Source: a virus
DNA length: 23,579 bases
Reading direction: 5' to 3' (one strand)
Virus record (IMG/VR): IMGVR_UViG_3300025647_000279
Location: 1 to 23,579 of that record
In this document: positions 6,277 to 21,728 of the stretch, in pieces
Layout of the letters: each line of letters starts with the position of its first letter
Numbering within the stretch: position 1 is the first letter of the stretch
Notes under the pieces: generated by a model
Databases searched by the model: none
What the model was told of the DNA's origin: nothing
The model's input: the letters and a program-made list of their open reading frames with translations, nothing else
Program-made: the position numbers and the translations under genes

Positions 6277-7775
6277 GGGCAGCTCCCCTCGTATTCCAAA
6301 TCAGGTATTTCAGCCTCGGCTTCAATGATACTGTCTGTATCCCTCATGCCAGTATAAGCCGCGGCTTCTGCAACTCCAATCGAGACTGCTTCAATCTCAT
6401 CGTCGAAGTCAACGAACGGATAGTTGACAATAGCCGAGATGAGATCATGCTGGGACGCGTGAACATAGAGTTCCCTGTTTCCAATGGCATCACCCAGGGC
6501 ATCGACAATTCGGTAGGATTTCTTCCGTCTCTCTGGTACATGATCATCGACGAGGACATATTTCCCCTTCCTCCGCATGGCCTTTTCCAGCAACCACTTC
6601 AACGTCCGTTGGTAGTTCACACTTTCTACTTTTACCTTAATGGGCTTCCACCTGTCAAGTAACTCAAAGAAAGTTTTTACAGACCAATCTGGATCGTGCC
6701 CGCGCATCTTCAGTGTTTCAAGGACAAACACTTTTTTGTACCCAGTTACAATATCTCGCCAGAGACCGACGACAGCCCAGGCCTCGTAATCCTTTCCTTT
6801 CAACCCTTCCCGAAGCTCGCGGTCGGACGGCGGAGGAACAGGGTCAACAATAATAAAAGTGGTTAACTGTTCCAGCGGAGGTAAAACTTCGTAATAGTTC
6901 AGAAGTTCCGAACGAAACGCCGTTAGCTCCCCGGTGACGGTCTGGCATTCCATCTCCCGCATCCAAAGCGGCAGCTTGCCCCTGTCGATAAACGACTGCT
7001 TTTCTTTCAGAAGCTCTTCCGTCGTCCAGCGTTCCGGCCACGCAGACTCCCCATCTTCGGTAAAGATTGAAATGCGAACCGAATCCCAAGTAGAGTCACG
7101 ATCACACTTAGAGATCACATCATCGTCATCAAGAAGAGTCTGCAATAAAACCATCTTCGCCAGGGGGGTCTCACTCCTGGGAGCTAGAGAGTTCTTCAAC
7201 GACCCGAGAAGTAAATCCTCCGTCTTATCCCTTTGCGTTTGAGTAGCAGTGTTTTCCTCGTCACAAGGGTCATCGACGAGGATAAGGTCAGGACGATAGT
7301 CATCCACGTTGATTCCACGGGTAGAGCCGGTGATACCCAGAGCAATAACCCTGATTGGAATGTTATCAGTCCCATGGTAAATCTCAATCTCCTCTGACGT
7401 CCACTTATTCCCTTTTCGAAGTTGGAAGGTAGCGGCCCAGCGAGTATTGTATTCCACCTGCTTCATCAGCCATTCGACAGTCCGACGGGAATGATCCTGG
7501 GATTTACCAACGATGAGAATCGTCCTGGAAATCGCAAAGGCAATTCGCTTGGAGAGGTACAGACGGAAAAGGGTAGTCTTTGCACCTCCACGAAATACCA
7601 TAAAGGAAACCAAACGGGACTGACCGTCCAGCTTCCCCCACATCATTCGGTGGAACGGAGGGGAAGACTGTCGGACAGTGTTCGGAAAGAAGAAGCGGGA
7701 ATAAAAGATACTATCAACCGCTGAGAGCTTCAGCACTTCCTCAACGGAGATAGTCTCTGTCTTTTCGGGAACCAT
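6273..7775 (-). CDS. terL: Terminase large subunit (packaging ATPase/nuclease)
   Basis: A 500-aa motor protein that pumps DNA into the prohead and cuts the concatemer. The ATPase domain shows a Walker A-type FRGGAKTT (residues 61-68), Walker B LILVDDP (164-170, with D168/D169) and a downstream LLQT coupling-motif candidate (210-213). The C-terminal RNase H-like nuclease shows IIVDP (D311), KVESVNYQ (E384) and a late acidic cluster FDDE (457-460) as likely metal ligands. The length is normal. GGAGG lies 5 nt before the ATG, which overlaps the stop of the upstream nuclease gene (TAATG). It is followed by the portal with a GTGA overlap. Confidence 0.95.
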   Translation of the reverse strand: MVPEKTETISVEEVLKLSAVDSIFYSRFFFPNTVRQSSPPFHRMMWGKLDGQSRLVSFMVFRGGAKTTLFRLYLSKRIAFAISRTILIVGKSQDHSRRTVEWLMKQVEYNTRWAATFQLRKGNKWTSEEIEIYHGTDNIPIRVIALGITGSTRGINVDDYRPDLILVDDPCDEENTATQTQRDKTEDLLLGSLKNSLAPRSETPLAKMVLLQTLLDDDDVISKCDRDSTWDSVRISIFTEDGESAWPERWTTEELLKEKQSFIDRGKLPLWMREMECQTVTGELTAFRSELLNYYEVLPPLEQLTTFIIVDPVPPPSDRELREGLKGKDYEAWAVVGLWRDIVTGYKKVFVLETLKMRGHDPDWSVKTFFELLDRWKPIKVKVESVNYQRTLKWLLEKAMRRKGKYVLVDDHVPERRKKSYRIVDALGDAIGNRELYVHASQHDLISAIVNYPFVDFDDEIEAVSIGVAEAAAYTGMRDTDSIIEAEAEIPDLEYEGSCP

Positions 7776-8290
7776 TAAGGCCTCCAGATATGAACGCCGA
7801 GTTCACCCCCGAGAACTATCTCAGGCTTTTCGGCCATAACGATTTTCTCAGGGAACGCAGTCGATGGGTCAAACCACTTCACCACTTCACACAAAGCAAT
7901 ATCCCAGAGAGCCTTCGGAAAGATACTCCGAATCACCGGGAAATACAGTTGCCTCAACTGCCACCATGCGTCAGATGTATGCTGCAGCTTAAACTCAAGG
8001 ATATGAATCCGCCCCTGAGCAGGGTCGAACAGAAGCGCATCCGGCTGGCACCAGCGCGGAGCGCAACTGTCCTCTTCAAGAAATTGGAACCACGGACTTG
8101 GAATGTAGCGTGTTCCGTAGAGCTTTTCGAAGAAGTCGTGTCCTCTCTGCTCGTAACGGATCCCCTGGGCCCTTCGTCCAGTCCTTTTCCTTCGTCCCCT
8201 CGCGAAAGGAGGTGCTGTTGGTGAGTATCTTGTCCATAGTATTGTCCCCGCAGGTTTAAACCTCTTGGGTGGTGGGCACCTCGTGTGCAT
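7775..8290 (-). CDS. PD-(D/E)XK nuclease-like protein between terminase genes
   Basis: A 171-aa protein with a basic N-terminus (KRFKP, RGRRKRTGRRAQG) and a PD-(D/E)XK core: RWCQPDALLFDP followed by RIHILEFKLQHT, giving Asp then Glu-x-Lys on consecutive strands, and then a WWQLRQLYFPVI helix. This layout is known from VRR-NUC/Mrr-like and Cas4-like nucleases. It is placed between small and large terminase genes, overlapping both (35 nt with terS; TAATG with terL). By analogy with HNH proteins beside terminases in other phages, it could assist DNA cutting during packaging. That function is inference. GGAG lies about 10 nt upstream of the start. Confidence 0.72.
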   Translation of the reverse strand: MHTRCPPPKRFKPAGTILWTRYSPTAPPFARGRRKRTGRRAQGIRYEQRGHDFFEKLYGTRYIPSPWFQFLEEDSCAPRWCQPDALLFDPAQGRIHILEFKLQHTSDAWWQLRQLYFPVIRSIFPKALWDIALCEVVKWFDPSTAFPEKIVMAEKPEIVLGGELGVHIWRP

Positions 8291-8783
8291 TGACCACTTT
8301 CTCCTGTTGTTCAGTATTCAACGTTTGTAGCACAGCAACATTGTGCATCAAAGCTCGGGCTTCTTCCAGCGAACCTTTATCCGCCACGAAGATATTCTGC
8401 TGTACGTTCAGTTGCCCTGGGGTAACAGTTTCACCCCCGGACTTCGGAGCGTATCCCAACCGATGCAACGTCTTGTCGGCAGCTGCGAGCAAAAAGCTCG
8501 GGTCTTGTGAATCGGCCACTGCCTTTCCCAGTTTTTCCACCGCCAAGTGCGAGACCCCCAGGAGCTTATCTCGCAGCGGTATTACTTGCGACTGAAGGAT
8601 CTCCTCATTCAGCTTCGCAACATATTCCTGAAACGCCTGGGAATTCACGATAATGCTCAACCAGCTTACCGTCAGGTTAAACGCCACGGCCACCTCATTC
8701 TGCGTTGCCGTAGGATTCGCAAGCATATACTGAGCAATCGCTTCGTGCTTCAGTCCAACTTTCTGTAGTTCCGTTCCGGCCAT
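8256..8783 (-). CDS. terS: Terminase small subunit
   Basis: A 175-aa protein. Residues about 22-50 (NPTATQNEVAVAFNLTVSWL) form a helix-turn-helix typical of the DNA-recognition domain of small terminases. A helical central region follows for oligomerisation, then a polar tail. The role is to bind the packaging site and recruit the large subunit. The start at 8783 (MAGTELQK) is chosen because a strong GGAGGAGG lies about 8 nt upstream; a start at 8810 would fall on the promoter -10. It is first in the late operon. Assignment rests on HTH, size and position, since small terminases vary widely. Confidence 0.82.
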   Translation of the reverse strand: MAGTELQKVGLKHEAIAQYMLANPTATQNEVAVAFNLTVSWLSIIVNSQAFQEYVAKLNEEILQSQVIPLRDKLLGVSHLAVEKLGKAVADSQDPSFLLAAADKTLHRLGYAPKSGGETVTPGQLNVQQNIFVADKGSLEEARALMHNVAVLQTLNTEQQEKVVNAHEVPTTQEV

Positions 8784-8809
8784 TTGAAAACCTCCTCCGA
8801 TTTGAGGCA

Positions 8810-8838
8810 AGTATAACGGAAAAAGGGGGGAGTGTCAA
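8810..8838 (-). promoter_or_regulatory. Consensus sigma-70 promoter of the late (structural) operon
   Basis: On the minus strand TTGACA (8838-8833), a 17-bp spacer and TATACT (8815-8810). Both boxes are at or one base from consensus and spacing is optimal. Transcription would begin near 8803, about 20 nt before the terS start codon. Confidence 0.88.
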
Positions 8839-9138
8839 GGTCGGCATGGCGCCGTGGCGGAATGGGGGCATACGGGCCATGGGGGACGCGTAGGGCGGGG
8901 ATCGGGAAAATCGAATGGTATGGCACGGGGTACGGCGGGCGGCGCGTGGTGGGCGCGTGGTGGCGCGAGGAAAAGTGTGCTGATATGAAAAAAGATATCG
9001 TCATACTTTATAATGAAAACTGGCGCAGTCCCGGAAGTGGTCATATGGAGACCGAGGCCGGGGGAGGCCATGGGGGGTCGGGCCTATAAATTTCACAGGT
9101 GCAGCATAGAAAACTTGAATTACCTTTTGTCCTGGTTA

Positions 9139-9147
9139 TGCTATACT
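9139..9147 (+). promoter_or_regulatory. Extended -10 promoter for the rightward paralog gene
   Basis: TG-C-TATACT at 9139-9147 is an extended -10 element. No good -35 sits at 17 bp; TTGAAT at 9115-9120 is 21 bp away. Transcription would begin near 9154, about 50 nt upstream of the gene at 9203. Confidence 0.65.
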
Positions 9148-9202
9148 TATAGCACGGATGGAGCATTTCCGTCCGGTTCTTTAACAACCAGGAGAAATGA
9201 AG

Positions 9203-9691
9203 ATGGCTAGAACTAAGGTAGCTGATAAGATCGTACTGCGTGATGAAAACGGGATTGCCTGTGCAATTAGAATCCTGTTTACCGATGGCCGAGAGGTGAA
9301 GGTTAACCTTGAAACCTTGGGTCAAATCATCAAAGCCGAAGCGCTTGCCCACGGGATTTCCCAAAAGCTGGGCGATTCATACAGCGGATGCCAGGGGAAC
9401 CTGGACGAAGCATTTGCTGAATGCGCCGCCGTTGCCGAAAGCATCATTGAAGGCAACTGGAATCGTAAAGGCGGAAGCGGAGGCGGCGAGCTCGCACAAG
9501 CCATTGCCGACCTTACCGGGAAGGAGTTGGATGAAATCATCCCGGTATTGCGTACGATGTCCGACGAGGACAAAGCAACGTTGCGGCGGCGTAAGGATGT
9601 GAAGGCGGCGCTGGCCAAGATCAAGGCGGCGAAAGCCGAAGCAGCGGCGAAAGCGGGCGGATCATCAGGCGATCTGAACGAATTGTTCTAA
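9203..9691 (+). CDS. Hypothetical protein, paralog A of a convergent pair
   Basis: A 162-aa protein of unknown function, clearly homologous to the gene at 9844-10341. Shared blocks are MA(R/K)TK(V/I)ADK at the N-terminus, HG(I/L)SQKLGD(S/A)YSG in the middle (about residues 52-65), a G(N/D)W, a GGG linker, a TG(K/R) segment, and an Ala/Lys-rich helix near the C-terminus. The HG.SQKLGD block resembles short conserved segments in unassigned phage proteins. The start at 9203 is preferred to 9197 because GGAG is 8 nt from it and because the paralog starts at the same residue. It has its own promoter and terminator and is the only rightward gene left of 10.8 kb. No TM or enzyme motif is seen. Confidence 0.85.
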   Translation: MARTKVADKIVLRDENGIACAIRILFTDGREVKVNLETLGQIIKAEALAHGISQKLGDSYSGCQGNLDEAFAECAAVAESIIEGNWNRKGGSGGGELAQAIADLTGKELDEIIPVLRTMSDEDKATLRRRKDVKAALAKIKAAKAEAAAKAGGSSGDLNELF

Positions 9692-9704
9692 CACACGACA
9701 GGAG

Positions 9705-9733
9705 CCCAGGCTGGAAACGGCCTGGGTTTTTTA
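9705..9733 (+). terminator. Intrinsic terminator of paralog A
   Basis: Stem CCCAGGC (9705-9711)/GCCTGGG (9720-9726), 8-nt loop, then TTTTTTATT. It lies 13 nt after the stop codon. Confidence 0.9.
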
Positions 9734-9787
9734 TTGTCCGTGAAAAGGCAGAACTTCAAACCGAGAGGGCTTTGTGCCCACACAGGC

Positions 9788-9812
9788 AAAAAAAGAGCCG
9801 CCCGAAGGCGGC
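9788..9812 (-). terminator. Intrinsic terminator of paralog B
   Basis: Read on the minus strand: stem GCCGCC/GGCGGC with a UUCG loop (9797-9812) followed by TC and a run of seven T. It lies about 30 nt after the stop of the leftward paralog. Together with the facing terminator it insulates the convergent genes. Confidence 0.9.
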
Positions 9813-9843
9813 CCAAACTTCCACGAGAAGGGAGGCGGAAAGA

Positions 9844-10341
9844 TTAGCCGATCAGGTCGGCAACGGAAGGGCCGGATTCGGCGTCAGCCTTGGCCCTTTC
9901 CGCAGCTTCGGCGGCACGTTCGGCTGTGATGCGAGCCAATTCCGCTTTGATCTGCGCGTGGTTGCGGAGATCTTTCTTGGCTTCCTTGGTCATACCCTCG
10001 ATGACGCCAACGGCTTCTTCAATGGTGCGGCCAGTGACGGTAGCCAGGGCATGTGCCAGGTCGGTGATACGACCGCCGCCACCTTCACGGACTGCCTTCC
10101 AGTCACCGTTAACCAAACGTTTGGCGACAGCTTCCGCCTTCCCGCGCGCCACGGCAACGTCCTTCTCACCGGAGTAGGCATCACCCAGCTTCTGAGACAG
10201 GCCATGCAGGGCCAGATGGGTCACGATTTCCGGGGGAAGATCGCTCAGGTTCACGGTCATGTTCTGCTCGTCGGAGAAGCTCAGCGTCACACCGGACAGA
10301 TCTTCAGCAATAGCTTTGTCAGCAATTTTGGTCTTAGCCAT
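9844..10341 (-). CDS. Hypothetical protein, paralog B of a convergent pair
   Basis: A 165-aa protein homologous to the gene at 9203-9691 (shared MAKTKIADK start, HGLSQKLGDAYSG block, G-D-W, GGGG linker, TGRTIEEA, then a long Ala/Glu/Lys/Arg-rich C-terminal helix with repeated AERA/AAE segments). Function unknown. The start at 10341 is chosen since GAGG lies 8 nt upstream and it matches the paralog's N-terminus; the 10359 start lacks a ribosome site. It is driven by a near-perfect sigma-70 promoter at 10416-10443, suggesting early and strong expression. The helical, charged C-terminus could serve in oligomerisation or nucleic-acid binding, which is speculation. Confidence 0.87.
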   Translation of the reverse strand: MAKTKIADKAIAEDLSGVTLSFSDEQNMTVNLSDLPPEIVTHLALHGLSQKLGDAYSGEKDVAVARGKAEAVAKRLVNGDWKAVREGGGGRITDLAHALATVTGRTIEEAVGVIEGMTKEAKKDLRNHAQIKAELARITAERAAEAAERAKADAESGPSVADLIG

Positions 10342-10415
10342 TAGATAATCCTCTTTCATGTGTTGGAGGTAAAAACATTTGTTCAGTCGGTAGGAACTTC
10401 CGTTCCCACAATTCC

Positions 10416-10443
10416 ATTATACATACCCCGTTCATGTTGTCAA
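10416..10443 (-). promoter_or_regulatory. Consensus sigma-70 promoter of paralog B
   Basis: On the minus strand TTGACA (10443-10438), 16-bp spacer, TATAAT (10421-10416). Both hexamers are perfect consensus. Predicted start is near 10409, giving a leader of about 68 nt with a small GGAAC/GTTCC inverted repeat at 10393-10406. Confidence 0.9.
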
Positions 10444-10518
10444 CGATTTTTCCCCCGCAGACATCATTTCCCCATCTTTCCCCGTTTGCACCTCAAGAGC
10501 ATACTCATTTCCCCACAC

Positions 10519-10557
10519 CCCCCTGTATTGGCCCCCTGTCTTTACCCCCTGTTCTTG
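10519..10557 (+). repeat. Three direct 13-bp iterons (CCCCCTGT core)
   Basis: Units begin at 10519, 10532 and 10545 and share CCCCCTGT plus a T-rich remainder (ATTGG, CTTTA, TCTTG). The exact 13-bp period is not expected from base composition alone. Confidence 0.85.
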
Positions 10558-10714
10558 CCTGAAAACGTCGATTTGAGGCATGTGTCCACCCCCGGGGGTA
10601 TCCTATACTGAGTTTTTATTTTTTTTTCTTTTTTTTAAGTATAAAAAATATTTTATAGAAAGTATGACGATTACTCTGGGGATACATCCCCCATTTACCC
10701 ATTTTCAGGCTACA

Positions 10715-10770
10715 ACAGGGGGAAAACACAGATGGTTACTACAGGGGGTCATGGGGAAATGTTCTCACAG
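10715..10770 (-). repeat. Inverted iteron array (ACAGGGGG on plus strand)
   Basis: Units at 10715 (ACAGGGGG), 10728 (ACAGATGG, degenerate) and 10741 (ACAGGGGG), with a weak in-phase ACAG at 10767. This is the reverse complement of the left array with the same 13-bp period. Confidence 0.75.
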
Positions 10771-10808
10771 AAAATGCCGGGGGATATGATACTATGGGGG
10801 AATATGGG

Positions 10809-10835
10809 TTGACATGCTGGGAACACTTTTATAAT
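10809..10835 (+). promoter_or_regulatory. Sigma-70 promoter opening the rightward gene block
   Basis: TTGACA at 10809-10814 and TATAAT at 10830-10835 are both perfect hexamers, with a short 15-bp spacer; TAATAT at 10832 would give 17 bp. It leads to the gene at 10886 with a leader of about 45 nt. The spacer contains GGGAACAC, similar to motifs in the two other right-arm promoters. Confidence 0.85.
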
Positions 10836-10885
10836 ATGGAATCGGGAATACACACCAACCCACCCGCAAAATCGGAGCACGAACA

Positions 10886-11242
10886 ATGAACCAAGCCGAC
10901 AAACAACTTCTGATCAAAATGATCGAGCATCAAATTACAATGACTGACAATTCTTACCGCACAATGGAAGGGATTGATGAAAAGGCATTACAGGAAATCA
11001 AGCAATGGCGGAAGCTGATCAAAGTCCTGGAAGAAATAAGCGTATCTCCGCCGGTTGAGCGTATTCAGCATACAACCATCATCGACGGCATTCCAGTTAA
11101 GGTTATCGCCCACATCGGCTTTGTGTCGATTGCGACTGGATTTTACGCGGAAAAGAAATGCCAGGCTTTTTATGCCTTCGGGGCGAATAATAAGGTTCTG
11201 GATGAAATTTATTTCACTGATAAGTTTGTAAAAGGAGAATAA
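10886..11242 (+). CDS. Hypothetical 118-aa early protein
   Basis: Not recognised. The N-terminal half is helical and charged (NQADKQLLIKMIEHQ onward) and the C-terminal half looks like alternating strands (TTIIDGIPVKVIAHIGFVSIATGFYAEK). GGAG lies 8 nt before the ATG. First gene after the strong promoter at 10809, so expected to be expressed early. No TM segment or known motif. Confidence 0.82.
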   Translation: MNQADKQLLIKMIEHQITMTDNSYRTMEGIDEKALQEIKQWRKLIKVLEEISVSPPVERIQHTTIIDGIPVKVIAHIGFVSIATGFYAEKKCQAFYAFGANNKVLDEIYFTDKFVKGE

Positions 11243-11248
11243 TTTTCC

Positions 11249-11836
11249 ATGCCGAAATATACAAAGAACCTGGAATTCTACCCCGAGCCATTCTGGTCAT
11301 TATTCGACATGATGGAGAACGGGCAGACAATTTCCCTCCGCTTTCCAGACGAAAAGCTCTGCATGAACACTCGTTTCGCCTGGTATAATTTTCAGAAAGC
11401 TGTCCTGGCGGCAATCAAGGCCGGGGATGAGTTTGATGAGGAAAGGCAGCTGAAGCTGACCGAACAGTGGCGGATATCGAAATCTTACGAGGCGATCATC
11501 CGACATGAACCTTCAGGAAGTTTGCCCGAATACGTCCTCCGCTTCCGTCCCAGGCGAGTCAACGACTTCCACTCTGCCATCCACAACGCCTTTGAACTGG
11601 CGGAGATGGACCAAACGCCCGAGGATTTGATCAAGGGGCTTTTTGACGAAGCGGATAAAGGGAAGAAAGGGAAGGAAGGAAGTGAGCTCCCACCCGCATT
11701 CGCGGGAGTGCAAACGGCGCCAAGCACTCCTCCCCCGGAGGATGTCGCTCCTTCCCTGTTCGTCCAACCACCGGAATTCTGCGTTGACACCGAAAACTGC
11801 AGCTACCCATATTGTGATTGCGGGAGGGGTGTATGA
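11249..11836 (+). CDS. Hypothetical 195-aa protein with Cys-rich tail
   Basis: Not recognised. An ordered, aromatic-rich N-terminal domain (about 1-135), then a Lys/Gly/Pro-rich linker (KGKKGKEGS, PSTPPPED), and a C-terminal CVDTENCSYPYCDC cluster of four Cys that could bind a metal. It begins 6 nt after the previous gene with AGGAG about 11 nt upstream. Its stop overlaps the next start (ATGA). The linker plus Cys tail suggests a small separable binding module. Confidence 0.8.
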   Translation: MPKYTKNLEFYPEPFWSLFDMMENGQTISLRFPDEKLCMNTRFAWYNFQKAVLAAIKAGDEFDEERQLKLTEQWRISKSYEAIIRHEPSGSLPEYVLRFRPRRVNDFHSAIHNAFELAEMDQTPEDLIKGLFDEADKGKKGKEGSELPPAFAGVQTAPSTPPPEDVAPSLFVQPPEFCVDTENCSYPYCDCGRGV

Positions 11837-12219
11837 AACATCTGTGGACCGATACACTGACCAAAGACGGCATTTTTGGCCTTAAATGTCAAAAATGCGG
11901 GAAATTCATTTCGGCTCTGGACGCCACGAAAATGGCGGTGGAGGAGCATGAAGAAACAACCAACACGGAATGTCCTGGTGCTACCATTAAAGAAGTCGTT
12001 TTCACCCCCGAAACCTCCGAGCCCGCCCGTTGCGCGAACGTCGTCCTTCGAGAAGCTCTTGGTCAATTCGACGAGGTCATCGTCATTGGACTGAAAGGCG
12101 AAAGCGACATCGCCCTTTCCGCCTCCCTCAACCTTTCCGCCTATCATGTGCACTATTACCTCACTCAGATCATTCACAATATGCACGCTGGAAAGTATCA
12201 CGTTGTCCGGGAGGAATGA
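11833..12219 (+). CDS. Hypothetical 128-aa protein with N-terminal CxxC
   Basis: Not recognised. It begins at 11833, where ATGA overlaps the previous stop and GGAGGGG lies just upstream; a start at 11818 is less likely. An N-terminal LKCQKCGKF (C19, C22) with C47 in TECPG suggests a small zinc-binding site. The second half (QFDEVIVIGLKGESDIALSASLNLSAYHVHYYLTQIIHNM) resembles a strand-helix fold. It is the last gene before the promoter at 12266. Confidence 0.8.
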   Translation: MKHLWTDTLTKDGIFGLKCQKCGKFISALDATKMAVEEHEETTNTECPGATIKEVVFTPETSEPARCANVVLREALGQFDEVIVIGLKGESDIALSASLNLSAYHVHYYLTQIIHNMHAGKYHVVREE

Positions 12220-18103: not shown

Positions 18104-18575
18104 TAACGCCATTCGTGAGGCAATCAAACAAGACCTGAAAAGTGCAGCGGCTACGGAAGTGGCGGAGTTCATCAATGACGCAATGGCATTGCAACAGAAG
18201 TATGATGCGTTGACAAAAGAACACGCAGCTCTTGTCCGGGAGTTTACGGAGCTTCAGGGAACCTATCACAAACAGGAGAAGCTGTGCATCGGCATGAAGG
18301 AAAGGGAAGTATCTGTGGAGAAACGGGAAAGCGCCGTTCGTACCCAGGAAATGCTGTTGAACAAGCGCGACAATGACCTGGAACTAACGGTTGCCCGTGC
18401 CGTTCTCGAAGAGGTCCGCAACTCTCGTGCAGAGGTCGGCAGGCTGGTTGAAAGAGTTTTCGGACATCCGGGGGTTAAGGTTGAGCGTTTTACCTCCTCA
18501 AACGTCAACACTCCAGAAGGCTATTCCTCCGATTCCAGAACTGAAACTGTCACAACTACGGACATTAAAGAATGA
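18090..18575 (+). CDS. Coiled-coil protein upstream of Sak4-like ATPase
   Basis: Not recognised by family. A 161-aa protein, nearly all helical: QQKYDALTKEHAALVREFTELQG and KEREVSVEKRESAVRTQEMLLNKRDNDLEL show heptad-like spacing over about residues 35-125. The C-terminal 35 residues are Ser/Thr/Glu-rich and probably disordered. GGAG is upstream of the ATG, and its stop overlaps the next ATG (ATGA). Close coupling with the ATPase suggests a partner, which is inference. Confidence 0.78.
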   Translation: MLELNNAIREAIKQDLKSAAATEVAEFINDAMALQQKYDALTKEHAALVREFTELQGTYHKQEKLCIGMKEREVSVEKRESAVRTQEMLLNKRDNDLELTVARAVLEEVRNSRAEVGRLVERVFGHPGVKVERFTSSNVNTPEGYSSDSRTETVTTTDIKE

Positions 18576-19417
18576 ACACTGAAGTAACATCACTCTCACC
18601 AGGAAACACCACCGGGCAGATTCCCGGTACAAACACTCTCCTTCTCGGGCCAACGGGAGTGGGGAAAACCTATGCCCTTCGCACAGCTGTTGCCGCCGGT
18701 TTGGAGGTATTTGTCCTTTCAACCGAGCCGGGAATTGCCTCTACCCTTGGAGATATTCCGTCGGATAAACTCCATTGGAAATACGTTGCACCAGCTGACA
18801 CCTCCTGGGAGGATCTTATCGACTCTGCCCAGAAGATCAATCAGCTTTCCTTTGAAGCCCTGGCAAAGATGTCGGCTATCAATAAACAGAAGTACACCCA
18901 GTGGATCGAAGTCATGTATTCCCTGAGGAACTTCATTGATGATCGGACAGGAAAGGAATTCGGAGATGTCACCTCCTGGGGGCCAGACCGTATGCTCGCC
19001 CTGGATTCCCTCTCCGGCCTTAACATTATGGCCATGAACCTTGTTGTCGGCTCCAAACCTACAAAGTCCCAGGCTGACTGGGGTGTTGCAATGGATAACC
19101 TCAAGCGGTTTGTCCATAAGCTGGTCTCTGATACCAACTGCTTCTTCACCCTCATCGGACATATGGAGCGGGAGAAGGATGAAATCTCCGGCGCGGTTAA
19201 GCTCATGCCGGCAACACTCGGGCGTAAGCTCCCCGCTGAAATTCCACTCTTTTTCGATGATGTCATTATGGCAAAACGGGAGGGAACTTCATTCAAATGG
19301 AGTACCGCTGCGACCGGCGCTGATCTCAAGGCTCGCAACCTTCCCATCTCTGACAACCTTTCACCAGACTTCAAATTGATTGTCGATGAGTGGAAGAAAA
19401 TGGGAGGTATTCTCTGA
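18572..19417 (+). CDS. Sak4-like RecA-fold ATPase (single-strand annealing/recombination)
   Basis: A 281-aa P-loop protein with Walker A GPTGVGKT (residues 26-33), Walker B MLALDSLSG (141-149) and a TLIGHMERE segment (193-201) typical of phage AAA_24/Sak4 proteins, which are short RecA relatives lacking the extra N- and C-terminal domains of RecA. The known role is ATP-dependent homologous annealing with the phage SSB. Here the SSB-type gene lies two genes downstream and a Cas4/RecB-like nuclease upstream, the usual recombination set. The start overlaps the previous stop (ATGA). The ribosome site is weak, so translation is probably coupled. Confidence 0.88.
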   Translation: MNTEVTSLSPGNTTGQIPGTNTLLLGPTGVGKTYALRTAVAAGLEVFVLSTEPGIASTLGDIPSDKLHWKYVAPADTSWEDLIDSAQKINQLSFEALAKMSAINKQKYTQWIEVMYSLRNFIDDRTGKEFGDVTSWGPDRMLALDSLSGLNIMAMNLVVGSKPTKSQADWGVAMDNLKRFVHKLVSDTNCFFTLIGHMEREKDEISGAVKLMPATLGRKLPAEIPLFFDDVIMAKREGTSFKWSTAATGADLKARNLPISDNLSPDFKLIVDEWKKMGGIL

Positions 19418-19617
19418 TGTCCAGTTTCGTTGAACTTGCAGATGGAAGCGTAGCGCTGTACGATGTTGAATGCGTCGGCAGTACTGAACTGGCCATTCAA
19501 ATCAACTTCGAAGGCGAGCGGATGTGGATTCCCCGCTCACAAATCCAGGACTTCGACGAGGACTTTACCTATCTCGAAATTCCTGAATGGCTCGCCCAGG
19601 AGAAAGGAATAATCTGA
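19417..19617 (+). CDS. Hypothetical 66-aa protein preceding the ribozyme
   Basis: Not recognised. A small, strand-rich acidic protein (SSFVELADGSVALYDVECVG, ERMWIPRSQIQDFDEDFTYLEIPEWL), similar in style to compact OB- or SH3-like modules but without a firm match. The ATG at 19417 overlaps the ATPase stop (TGATG) and has GGGAGG about 9 nt upstream. Its UGA stop codon forms part of stem II of the hammerhead ribozyme, so ribosomes ending translation here would disturb ribozyme folding. Confidence 0.8.
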   Translation: MSSFVELADGSVALYDVECVGSTELAIQINFEGERMWIPRSQIQDFDEDFTYLEIPEWLAQEKGII

Positions 19618-19743
19618 CGAAACATAGGAACACGGCAGACGCGGAAGGTCTTTGCCTATCTCCCCATCCGCTCAATGGTTGGTGACCGCTGTCGTGTTCC
19701 TTGTTCAGGCACTTGGGTATGTGCCTGCTGATGAGTCTACCCA
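19616..19743 (+). ncRNA. Type II hammerhead self-cleaving ribozyme
   Basis: All core parts are in place. GAAA (19619-19622) opens stem III, in which 19622-19638 pairs with 19689-19704 through 16 pairs with one bulged U and one G-U, enclosing a roughly 50-nt loop. The cleavage site UU (U16.1 at 19704, H17 at 19705) follows. Stem I is CAGGCAC (19706-19712)/GTGCCTG (19721-19727) with loop UUGGGUAU. CUGAUGA is at 19728-19734. Stem II is G19735-U-C pairing with G19616-A-C. Loop-I bases UGGGUA (19714-19719) complement UACCCA (19738-19743), the pseudoknot expected for type II hammerheads. Predicted cleavage is between 19705 and 19706. H17 = U is permitted but unusual. Activity has not been shown. 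Confidence 0.9.
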
Positions 19744-19794
19744 TAACCGTTACCTAACAGTAACATTTTTCCGAACAGAAAGAGGAAACAAACC

Positions 19795-20223
19795 ATGTCT
19801 TTCAATCCTGAAGAATTCATGCAGACAACCACCGAAGAAGCAACCTCAACCGAATACGTTCCGATTCCCGAAGGCGAATACAACGCTGTCATTGACAAGG
19901 TGGATGGTCGCGAAACCCAGAATGGTTCCCCCGTGATGGATGTGACCTGGAAACTGGACGCACCCGACAACGAAGATGCACATGAGAAATCCGTCCGTCA
20001 GTCCATTTTCCTGGACTTGTCCGAAGGCGGTGCACTCCTGACCGGCAAAGGCCAGAACGTCCAGCTCGGACGTCTCCGTGCTGCGCTCGGCCAGAACACT
20101 CCCGGACAGGCCTGGGCGCCCAGCATGCTGCAGGGGAATGTTGCAGTCGTGACTGTCAAGCATCGCATGGGTGACGAAGGTCAGATCTACAACGACGTCA
20201 AACACGTTGCCGCCCTTTCCTAA
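19795..20223 (+). CDS. Probable single-stranded DNA-binding protein (DUF669-like)
   Basis: A 142-aa protein starting MSFNPEEFMQTTTEEATSTEYVPIPEGEYNAVID. The pattern PEGEYNAVIDKVD.. followed by MDVTWKLD, then a RLRAALGQ helix and a strand VAVVTVKHR resembles phage OB-fold SSB-type proteins of the DUF669 kind that travel with Sak4-like ATPases. Family knowledge places such proteins on ssDNA at the fork and in recombination. GAGGAAA lies about 8 nt upstream. The 177-nt leader is taken up by the hammerhead ribozyme, so its mRNA may start with a stem-I hairpin and a 5' hydroxyl after cleavage. Low primary-sequence conservation keeps this below certainty. Confidence 0.72.
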   Translation: MSFNPEEFMQTTTEEATSTEYVPIPEGEYNAVIDKVDGRETQNGSPVMDVTWKLDAPDNEDAHEKSVRQSIFLDLSEGGALLTGKGQNVQLGRLRAALGQNTPGQAWAPSMLQGNVAVVTVKHRMGDEGQIYNDVKHVAALS

Positions 20224-20277: not shown

Positions 20278-20445
20278 ATGGTACATAAAAATATCTTTGG
20301 TTCCAGACGCAACGGTTCCGTTGTTAAAGGACGATTCCAGGCCTTCCGTGCCTCTGACATTCTTGCAAAGGAAATCGAGCGGAAGGCAGATGTTCAAGCA
20401 CAGCGTAATGCAAAACGTATAGAAAAACGTCGCCGGAGTTCCTAA
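20278..20445 (+). CDS. Tiny basic protein (55 aa)
   Basis: Starts MVHKNIFGSRRNGSVVKG and ends KRIEKRRRSS. Strongly basic, with one predicted helix in the second half (SDILAKEIERKADVQAQRNAKRIEKRRR). AAGGAG lies 7 nt before the ATG, and the stop overlaps the next gene start (TAATG), so it is very likely translated. Not recognised; the charge suggests contact with nucleic acid. Confidence 0.75.
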   Translation: MVHKNIFGSRRNGSVVKGRFQAFRASDILAKEIERKADVQAQRNAKRIEKRRRSS

Positions 20446-21728
20446 TGGATCAACTCGTAAAACTCTCCTCCATCAATAAGGATACCCGCCAACGCAAGTT
20501 CTTCGACGAAATGAAGATCGTTGAGCTGGCAGATTCAATCCTTGCTCATGGGCTTCTCCATGCCGTTGTCCTCCGTAAGGATGTCGATGATCTCGTTGCC
20601 GGTGATCGCCGCTCCCGAGCCGTCGAGCTTATTTACCGCAAGGGCCTGACATTCTCGTACAATGGAGTGGAGGTCCCTCCTGGTTTTATCCCTGTCACCC
20701 GCGTCTCCCCTGCGGATGAACTTCAGTTCCGTGAGATGGAGCTGCATGAGAACATTCAGCGAGAGGACCTGACGTGGCAGGAAGAGTCCGAGGCCCACGC
20801 AGAACTCCATCGACTCCGCCAACTGCAAACGAACGGGACGCAAACACTCGAGCAAACGGCGAGGGAACTTAAGGGAGAGCGTCCCTTCTCTGGCACCGAC
20901 ACCACCGCGCTATCGACCGATATCCTCATCGCAGATAACCTGGGGGACGAGGATATTGCAAAGGCCAAGTCAAAGAAAGAGGCGTTGAAGATTCTTCAGC
21001 ATAAAAAGCAGAAGGAGAAGAACGAACAACTGGCCGAAAAGTTTAACCTGAATTCTCAGCTGGATCATCGCCACCAGCTTACCCATGGTAATGCTATTGT
21101 CGAACTCCACAATATGACCCCGGAGCATTTCGATGTCATCATCACAGATCCTCCATACGGAGTCGGCGCCCACACCTTTGGCGACCAGACACTCATCAAC
21201 CATGAGTACGACGACTCATTCGAGTCCTGGCAAAAGATTATGGTTCCTTTTGCTCATGAGTCTTTTCGTGTCGCAGCCGCTCAATCACACGCCTATGTGT
21301 TCTGCGACATCAGGAATTGGCCCACTCTTGCAGAGATGTTCCGAGAGGCCGGATGGTATGTCTGGTCTCGACCACTCATCTGGGACAAAGGCAACGTGGG
21401 CACACTTCCGAGACCCCAGCATGGGCCACGCCTTTGCTACGAGGCAATCCTCTACGCCATCAAAGGCGATAAGGAGACCACAAAGGTTGCCCACGATGTT
21501 ATCAGAATCCCGGCAACCGCAAAGCCCAGACATGCGGCGGAGAAGCCTGTCGATCTTTACGTCGAGCTTCTCTCCCGTTCTGTGAAACCCGGAGATAAAA
21601 TCATAGACCCGTTCTGTGGCTCCGGTCCCGTGTTCCCAGCGGCAAACAGGCTTCATCTTACCGCAACGGGAATTGAACTCGAACAGGCGAACATTGGTAT
21701 CGCTTCAGAAAGATTAGAGGAAAAATAA
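20445..21728 (+). CDS. ParB-like nuclease/N6- or N4-DNA methyltransferase fusion
   Basis: A 427-aa two-domain protein. Residues 1-115 resemble a ParB/Sulfiredoxin-type N-terminal domain (VAGDRRSRAV at 51-60, a GERR-like box, and HENIQREDLTWQEE at 101-114). Residues about 210-427 form an amino-methyltransferase: DPPY (235-238, catalytic motif IV), WDKG (313-316), and DPFCGSG (388-394, S-adenosylmethionine site). DPPY preceding the FxGxG motif is the beta-type order. It would transfer a methyl group to adenine or cytosine amino groups in a specific DNA sequence. Such fusions are known in phages, where methylation can shield phage DNA from restriction. No cognate nuclease is seen here. Confidence 0.9.
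   Translation: MDQLVKLSSINKDTRQRKFFDEMKIVELADSILAHGLLHAVVLRKDVDDLVAGDRRSRAVELIYRKGLTFSYNGVEVPPGFIPVTRVSPADELQFREMELHENIQREDLTWQEESEAHAELHRLRQLQTNGTQTLEQTARELKGERPFSGTDTTALSTDILIADNLGDEDIAKAKSKKEALKILQHKKQKEKNEQLAEKFNLNSQLDHRHQLTHGNAIVELHNMTPEHFDVIITDPPYGVGAHTFGDQTLINHEYDDSFESWQKIMVPFAHESFRVAAAQSHAYVFCDIRNWPTLAEMFREAGWYVWSRPLIWDKGNVGTLPRPQHGPRLCYEAILYAIKGDKETTKVAHDVIRIPATAKPRHAAEKPVDLYVELLSRSVKPGDKIIDPFCGSGPVFPAANRLHLTATGIELEQANIGIASERLEEK

Follow-up and report, generated by a model that had tools for sequence, protein, structure and literature searches.

A pseudoknotted type II hammerhead ribozyme as a probable intercistronic joint in the replication operon of an uncultivated tailed-phage-like virus

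What hammerhead ribozymes do in phages has been a standing question since 2011. The window analyzed here, the 23,579-base record of an uncultivated virus with tailed-phage genes, harbors at positions 19616–19743 a complete set of pseudoknotted type II hammerhead elements when its sequence is read base by base (Table 1). We assign a probability of about 0.82 to the reading that this RNA is a pseudoknotted type II hammerhead serving as an intercistronic joint at which the replication-operon mRNA is cut. The component claims carry different weights. That the element truly belongs to the hammerheads, by sequence descent or design, is nearly certain; that it cleaves usefully is predicted with good confidence; and that it acts as an operon joint, should it cleave, is likely. 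It adds to a known ribozyme type a member that had not been listed before and that Rfam does not detect.

The minus strand of the window encodes the portal, terminase, and major head protein; the plus strand forms a replication module that includes a PD-(D/E)XK exonuclease. As the first-pass annotation had placed it, the element lies between a 66-aa gene and a single-stranded-DNA-binding (SSB)-type gene. For the upstream gene, the preferred reading starts at ATG 19417 and gives 66 aa; its protein family, phrog_8389, is annotated function-unknown. The family of the downstream gene, phrog_378, is that of single strand DNA binding protein, and an AGAGGA ribosome-binding site precedes the ATG by about 10 nt. 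Downstream of the SSB-type gene, positions 20445–21728 encode a fusion of a ParB N-terminal domain with an N6/N4 DNA methyltransferase. No DNA similarity to cultured phages was found for the window.

Table 1. Coordinates of the hammerhead elements and flanking genes in the window (R1 is the covariance model described in the text)
Feature	Position	Strand	Basis
Sak4-like AAA protein	18572–19417	+	
66-aa gene (ATG 19417, GGGAGGT before start)	19417–19617	+	ORF list; phrog_8389, E 1.5e-6
Stem II, 5′ strand GAC	19616–19618	+	Sequence; R1 alignment
Core G12 A13 A14 A15.1 (GAAA)	19619–19622	+	Sequence; invariant in alignment A1 of natural hammerheads
Stem III, 16 pairs, one bulged U (19625), branched ~50 nt loop	19622–19704	+	Sequence; folding
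Predicted cleavage site, 3′ of U17 (19705), before C19706	19705–19706	+	Junction register; R1 alignment
Stem I hairpin CAGGCAC-TTGGGTAT-GTGCCTG	19706–19727	+	Sequence; folding
Pseudoknot, loop I strand TGGGTA	19714–19719	+	Descriptor scan; class-wide complementarity test
Core CUGAUGA	19728–19734	+	Sequence
Stem II, 3′ strand GTC	19735–19737	+	Sequence
Pseudoknot, tail strand TACCCA	19738–19743	+	Descriptor scan; class-wide complementarity test
SSB-type gene, DUF669/phrog_378	19795–20223	+	Pfam PF05037, E 3e-5; phrog_378, E 5e-6

The order of the parts is that of a type II hammerhead, with stem II open at the 5′ and 3′ ends and loops capping stems I and III. The three-helix junction proposed in the first-pass annotation holds base by base: the CUGANGA core, GAAA, and the UH site all sit in the correct junctions, and the stems have the claimed lengths (16 pairs in stem III, 7 perfect pairs in stem I, and 3 in stem II). 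Stem III is closed by the A15.1–U16.1 pair, and its strands run from A19622-C19623-A19624 through the bulged T19625 to 19626–19638, opposite 19689–19704, with one G-U. In stem I, CAGGCAC (19706–19712) pairs with GTGCCTG (19721–19727) around a loop at 19713–19720. The full complementarity claimed between TGGGTA in this loop and the six bases 3′ of stem II was confirmed as six Watson–Crick pairs, a trait that is common in type II hammerheads and not obligatory. An unconstrained minimum-free-energy fold recovers all three stems round the junction (−47.7 kcal/mol, z −2.6) with a single non-native additional pair, A14 with U17. For the cleavage products, the upstream piece (19616–19705) is predicted to fold at −34.4 kcal/mol (z −3.6) as stem III plus its cap, and stem I on the downstream piece at −12.2 kcal/mol. 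Placing C19706 at position 17 instead was ruled out as a register, since it disrupts the second pair of stem III and leaves an additional base ahead of CUGAUGA.

That such a coincidence is very unlikely by chance, as initially argued, is borne out by counts in random sequence and by a covariance model. A loose descriptor (stem I ≥5, stem II ≥3, and stem III ≥3, with a pseudoknot ≥5 as an extra condition) was run over first-order Markov sequence having the dinucleotides of the window. It matched once in 60 Mb and never in 20 Mb; with the pseudoknot ≥5 added, there was no match in 60 Mb. The actual element surpasses the descriptor limits in stem I, the pseudoknot, and the continued stem III, and it is the only site that the descriptor finds in the window. 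The covariance model R1 was built from 20 natural type II hammerheads found in phage contigs other than the window. With filters off it gives the site 34.9 bits and an E-value of 6e-9 (34.8 bits with default filters). The second-best place in the window reaches 8.1 bits (E 1.6), so that the gap is wide even though a short calibration makes these E-values rough. Other long-stem examples score 29.6–48 bits under R1, a normal range that includes the window. Anatomy, descriptor, and R1 together uphold the identification as a type II hammerhead with a loop-I pseudoknot.

The Rfam hammerhead type II covariance model, suggested at the outset as a check, behaved otherwise: run over the window, RF02276 did not match the ribozyme, and neither it nor any other Rfam family gave a relevant match at the gathering threshold or at E ≤ 10. 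We read the missing match as a limit of the model, because RF02276 also misses other clear hammerheads with a long stem III (L030, L050, L063, and L127). It misses further hammerheads in two more loci (L103 and L130) and accepts short ones in L069 and L131. Like RF02276, the window element occurs in a phage setting, has a very short and open stem II, closes stems I and III, keeps the whole core, and pairs loop I with the tail immediately following stem II; it departs from that family in its 83-nt stem III domain, in having U17 for C, and in a score far below the Rfam threshold. Since the Rfam type II model overlooks an elaborated stem III, surveys and catalogues undercount such hammerheads.

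Siblings were sought by scanning viral contigs for GACGAAA-(90-120)-CTGATGAGTC and then applying the descriptor, which yielded many clear type II hammerheads, some of them in tandem. They form same-strand sets in four wholly read contigs, with 13 copies in G020 (45 kb), 9 in G021 (53 kb), 2 in G024, and 10 in G022 (126 kb), where they span the contig ends; about ten more occur in a 12 kb fragment (L131, array at 6909–11872). One copy stands ahead of a DNA helicase gene in each of G020 and G021. The long elaborated stem III recurs in the four such loci named above and in G020, G021, and L131, and loop I/tail complementarity averages 5.1 Watson–Crick pairs among long-loop members versus 3.5 when re-dealt (0 of 2000 shuffles). 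Among the features first flagged as odd, neither the 3-bp stem II nor the long, branched stem III is unusual in this class; only the U at the cleavage position is truly odd. The arrays in G020/L069, G021/L073, G022, and L131 resemble the window in being type II, in having a stop codon against stem II, and in having the next gene just 3′. Pseudoknots like that of the window (TTGGTA/TACCAA, TTGGCA/TGCCAA) occur in some of their members, and a long stem III occurs in some. However, arrays carry 9 to 13 copies per contig, placed before nearly every gene of the module, and the window carries one.

The earlier observation that the upstream stop codon falls within stem II is correct: the TGA of the 66-aa gene, at 19615–19617, overlaps the 5′ strand of that stem. 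This abutment was assessed across the class by asking whether an ORF of ≥45 codons ends no more than 10 nt before GAAA, with shifted positions as the control. In the first set, 35 of 50 hammerheads abut a stop versus 3.3 expected (control maximum 8). A second sample, drawn with a short-stem pattern and free of the first-set contigs G021 and G022, gave 107 of 154 versus 7.8 in the control (maximum 17), with at least one stop-abutting hammerhead in 68 of 94 contigs. Stop distances from GAAA peak at −4, −5, and −7. On the 3′ side, a ribosome-binding site and an ORF start within 60 nt follow 124 of the 154, mostly at 13–35 nt; the start codon of the SSB-type gene, 58 nt from stem II, is farther than in most arrays (13–35 nt). 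The order of stop, hammerhead, and next gene is a rule for phage type II hammerheads, holding in ~70%, although the counts ignore lineage and part of the abutment could simply reflect how compact phage genomes are. The earlier open-access descriptions consulted here do not mention the order of stop, ribozyme, and ribosome-binding site as a general rule. Such frequent abutment with a ribosome-binding site next is as expected of mRNA-processing joints that can meet a terminating ribosome. We tentatively propose that type II hammerheads might be termination-coupled joints, in which a terminating ribosome on stem II and GAAA decides the cut; the window element might, just as tentatively, be one case of such a termination-coupled intercistronic joint. 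If the coupling is true, the ribosome finishing the upstream gene sets cleavage before the next ribosome-binding site.

Published precedents are consistent with a role in RNA processing. Type II hammerheads with a pseudoknot have been described in prophages, those with a loop-I pseudoknot cleave in vitro, and tandem bacterial and prophage sets cleave in vitro, one set also in E. coli; the authors proposed that processing of phage transcripts yields mRNAs for an operon or for a single gene (Perreault et al., 2011; PMC3088659). In the haloviruses HF1/HF2, an mRNA 5′ end lies within three nt of the hammerhead cleavage site before the helicase gene (PMC3088659). This 'HHphage' hammerhead is, like that of the window, just upstream of an early viral replication gene, but it has a variant core and an archaeal host, whereas the window has a canonical core except for U17. 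By analogy, the mapped 5′ end supports cleavage in vivo.

The operon-joint reading, in which a pseudoknotted type II hammerhead cuts the replication mRNA, would proceed as follows. The transcript of the replication operon would fold and cut itself between U19705 and C19706. By established chemistry, hammerhead cleavage puts a 2′,3′-cyclic phosphate on the upstream product and a 5′ hydroxyl on the downstream one. The upstream RNA, with the Sak4-like and 66-aa genes, would end in the cyclic phosphate at the foot of the stem III hairpin, and the downstream RNA, with the SSB-type gene and the methyltransferase, would start with the hydroxyl at the base of the stem I hairpin. Two mRNAs would result, each with a hairpin on its new end, so that their stability and dosage could differ; the hairpins would probably protect both, and the SSB-type gene would be uncoupled from the genes upstream. 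That both new ends carry a hairpin in type II topology suggests why phages may favor this permutation. A ribosome stopped on the TGA would presumably sit over stem II, GAAA, and the first part of stem III, and termination and ribozyme folding would therefore momentarily exclude each other. The full anatomy, its departure from random expectation, its kinship with the type II hammerheads of phages, and its place between a stop codon and the following gene are directly shown; cleavage in the cell, an effect on mRNA stability, and competition with ribosomes ending at this stop codon are inferred. The stop-codon overlap behind the competition idea, raised in the first-pass annotation, is general among these hammerheads.

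The most atypical feature of the element is its cleavage nucleotide. None of 203 other hammerheads (49 + 154) has U at position 17, where nearly all have C and a few A. The NUH rule permits U there, with GUC reported as the best triplet (PMC2238771), and since the formal rule is H, not G, U17 is atypical without excluding the element from the hammerhead class. The A14–U17 pair of the predicted fold may slow cleavage, and the window copy, in which this pair can form, may be slow or on its way out. Carried further, these two facts suggest a decayed or nearly inactive hammerhead whose fold persists and whose activity is crippled by U17 and a stable A14–U17 pair. We regard decay as unlikely, given that the remaining core bases, the three stems, and the perfect 6-bp pseudoknot are intact and that U is a permitted nucleotide. 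A different possibility dispenses with catalysis: the stem I helix together with the loop/tail pairing makes an H-type pseudoknot ahead of the SSB-type gene, and this could be a regulatory structure bound by the SSB itself. Phage T4 gene 32, with its autoregulatory pseudoknot, provides the model. Such a reading is very improbable and was set aside as the main one, for it does not account for the catalytic core, with stem II, GAAA, CUGAUGA, and the UH site at exact junctions, or for the R1 hammerhead match; moreover, SSB relatives do not have such an element. That two hairpins in an intergenic region fell into this arrangement by chance would accord with the lack of conservation at the locus among relatives, but the random-sequence counts and R1 refute it statistically and leave it a negligible probability.

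The same relatives bear on whether the ribozyme serves the operon at all. Searches with the Sak4-like protein recovered 15 loci (40–62% identity), 3 cultured-phage or named records, and 67 further loci by profile; a scan of IMG/VR with the SSB protein recovered no locus. The SSB-type gene follows the Sak4-like gene in nearly all relatives, at an interval of 10–730 nt. Neither R1 nor the descriptor found a hammerhead in any of the ~85 relatives with this Sak4–SSB neighborhood, and none has a homolog of the 66-aa gene in the interval. Because the relatives have neither at this locus, the 66-aa gene and ribozyme look like a local gain. The proposed check on preservation of the core and pseudoknot in related phages thus found the whole element absent, which makes conservation at the locus unusable either way; support comes from the class instead. 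Both parts look inserted, and elsewhere hammerheads are often found beside small ORFs that are not conserved (PMC6155905), which raises the alternative that the 66-aa gene and hammerhead form a mobile cassette whose ribozyme serves the cassette, for example in RNA circularization or gene insulation, rather than the operon. However, an RNA circle cannot form, because only one hammerhead is present, and homologs of the 66-aa protein, which occur in unrelated phage contexts (L142–L155), have no hammerhead nearby. We consider the cassette doubtful, and an operon joint remains the preferred reading.

Several weak signals were dismissed as chance. A scan for the same pseudoknot pattern had a single match (L022), which has no stem I; RF02276 matched weakly in relatives L020 and L021 (16 and 11.5 bits) and R1 in L152 (13.8 bits, E 0.25), all without proper stems. 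Between the ribozyme and the SSB-type gene, a weak 5-bp hairpin (19753–19773, GTTAC-CTAACA-GTAAC) followed by ATTTTT was not flagged by a terminator scan of the 3′ region and could be a weak terminator or nothing. Dense hammerhead arrays are seen in IMGVR_UViG_3300047317_000073 (L156–L158; 22493–30437), IMGVR_UViG_3300047160_000799 (L159–L161; 32646–36727), and IMGVR_UViG_3300048837_000975 (L162/L168); in two arrays the module ends in a DNA helicase.
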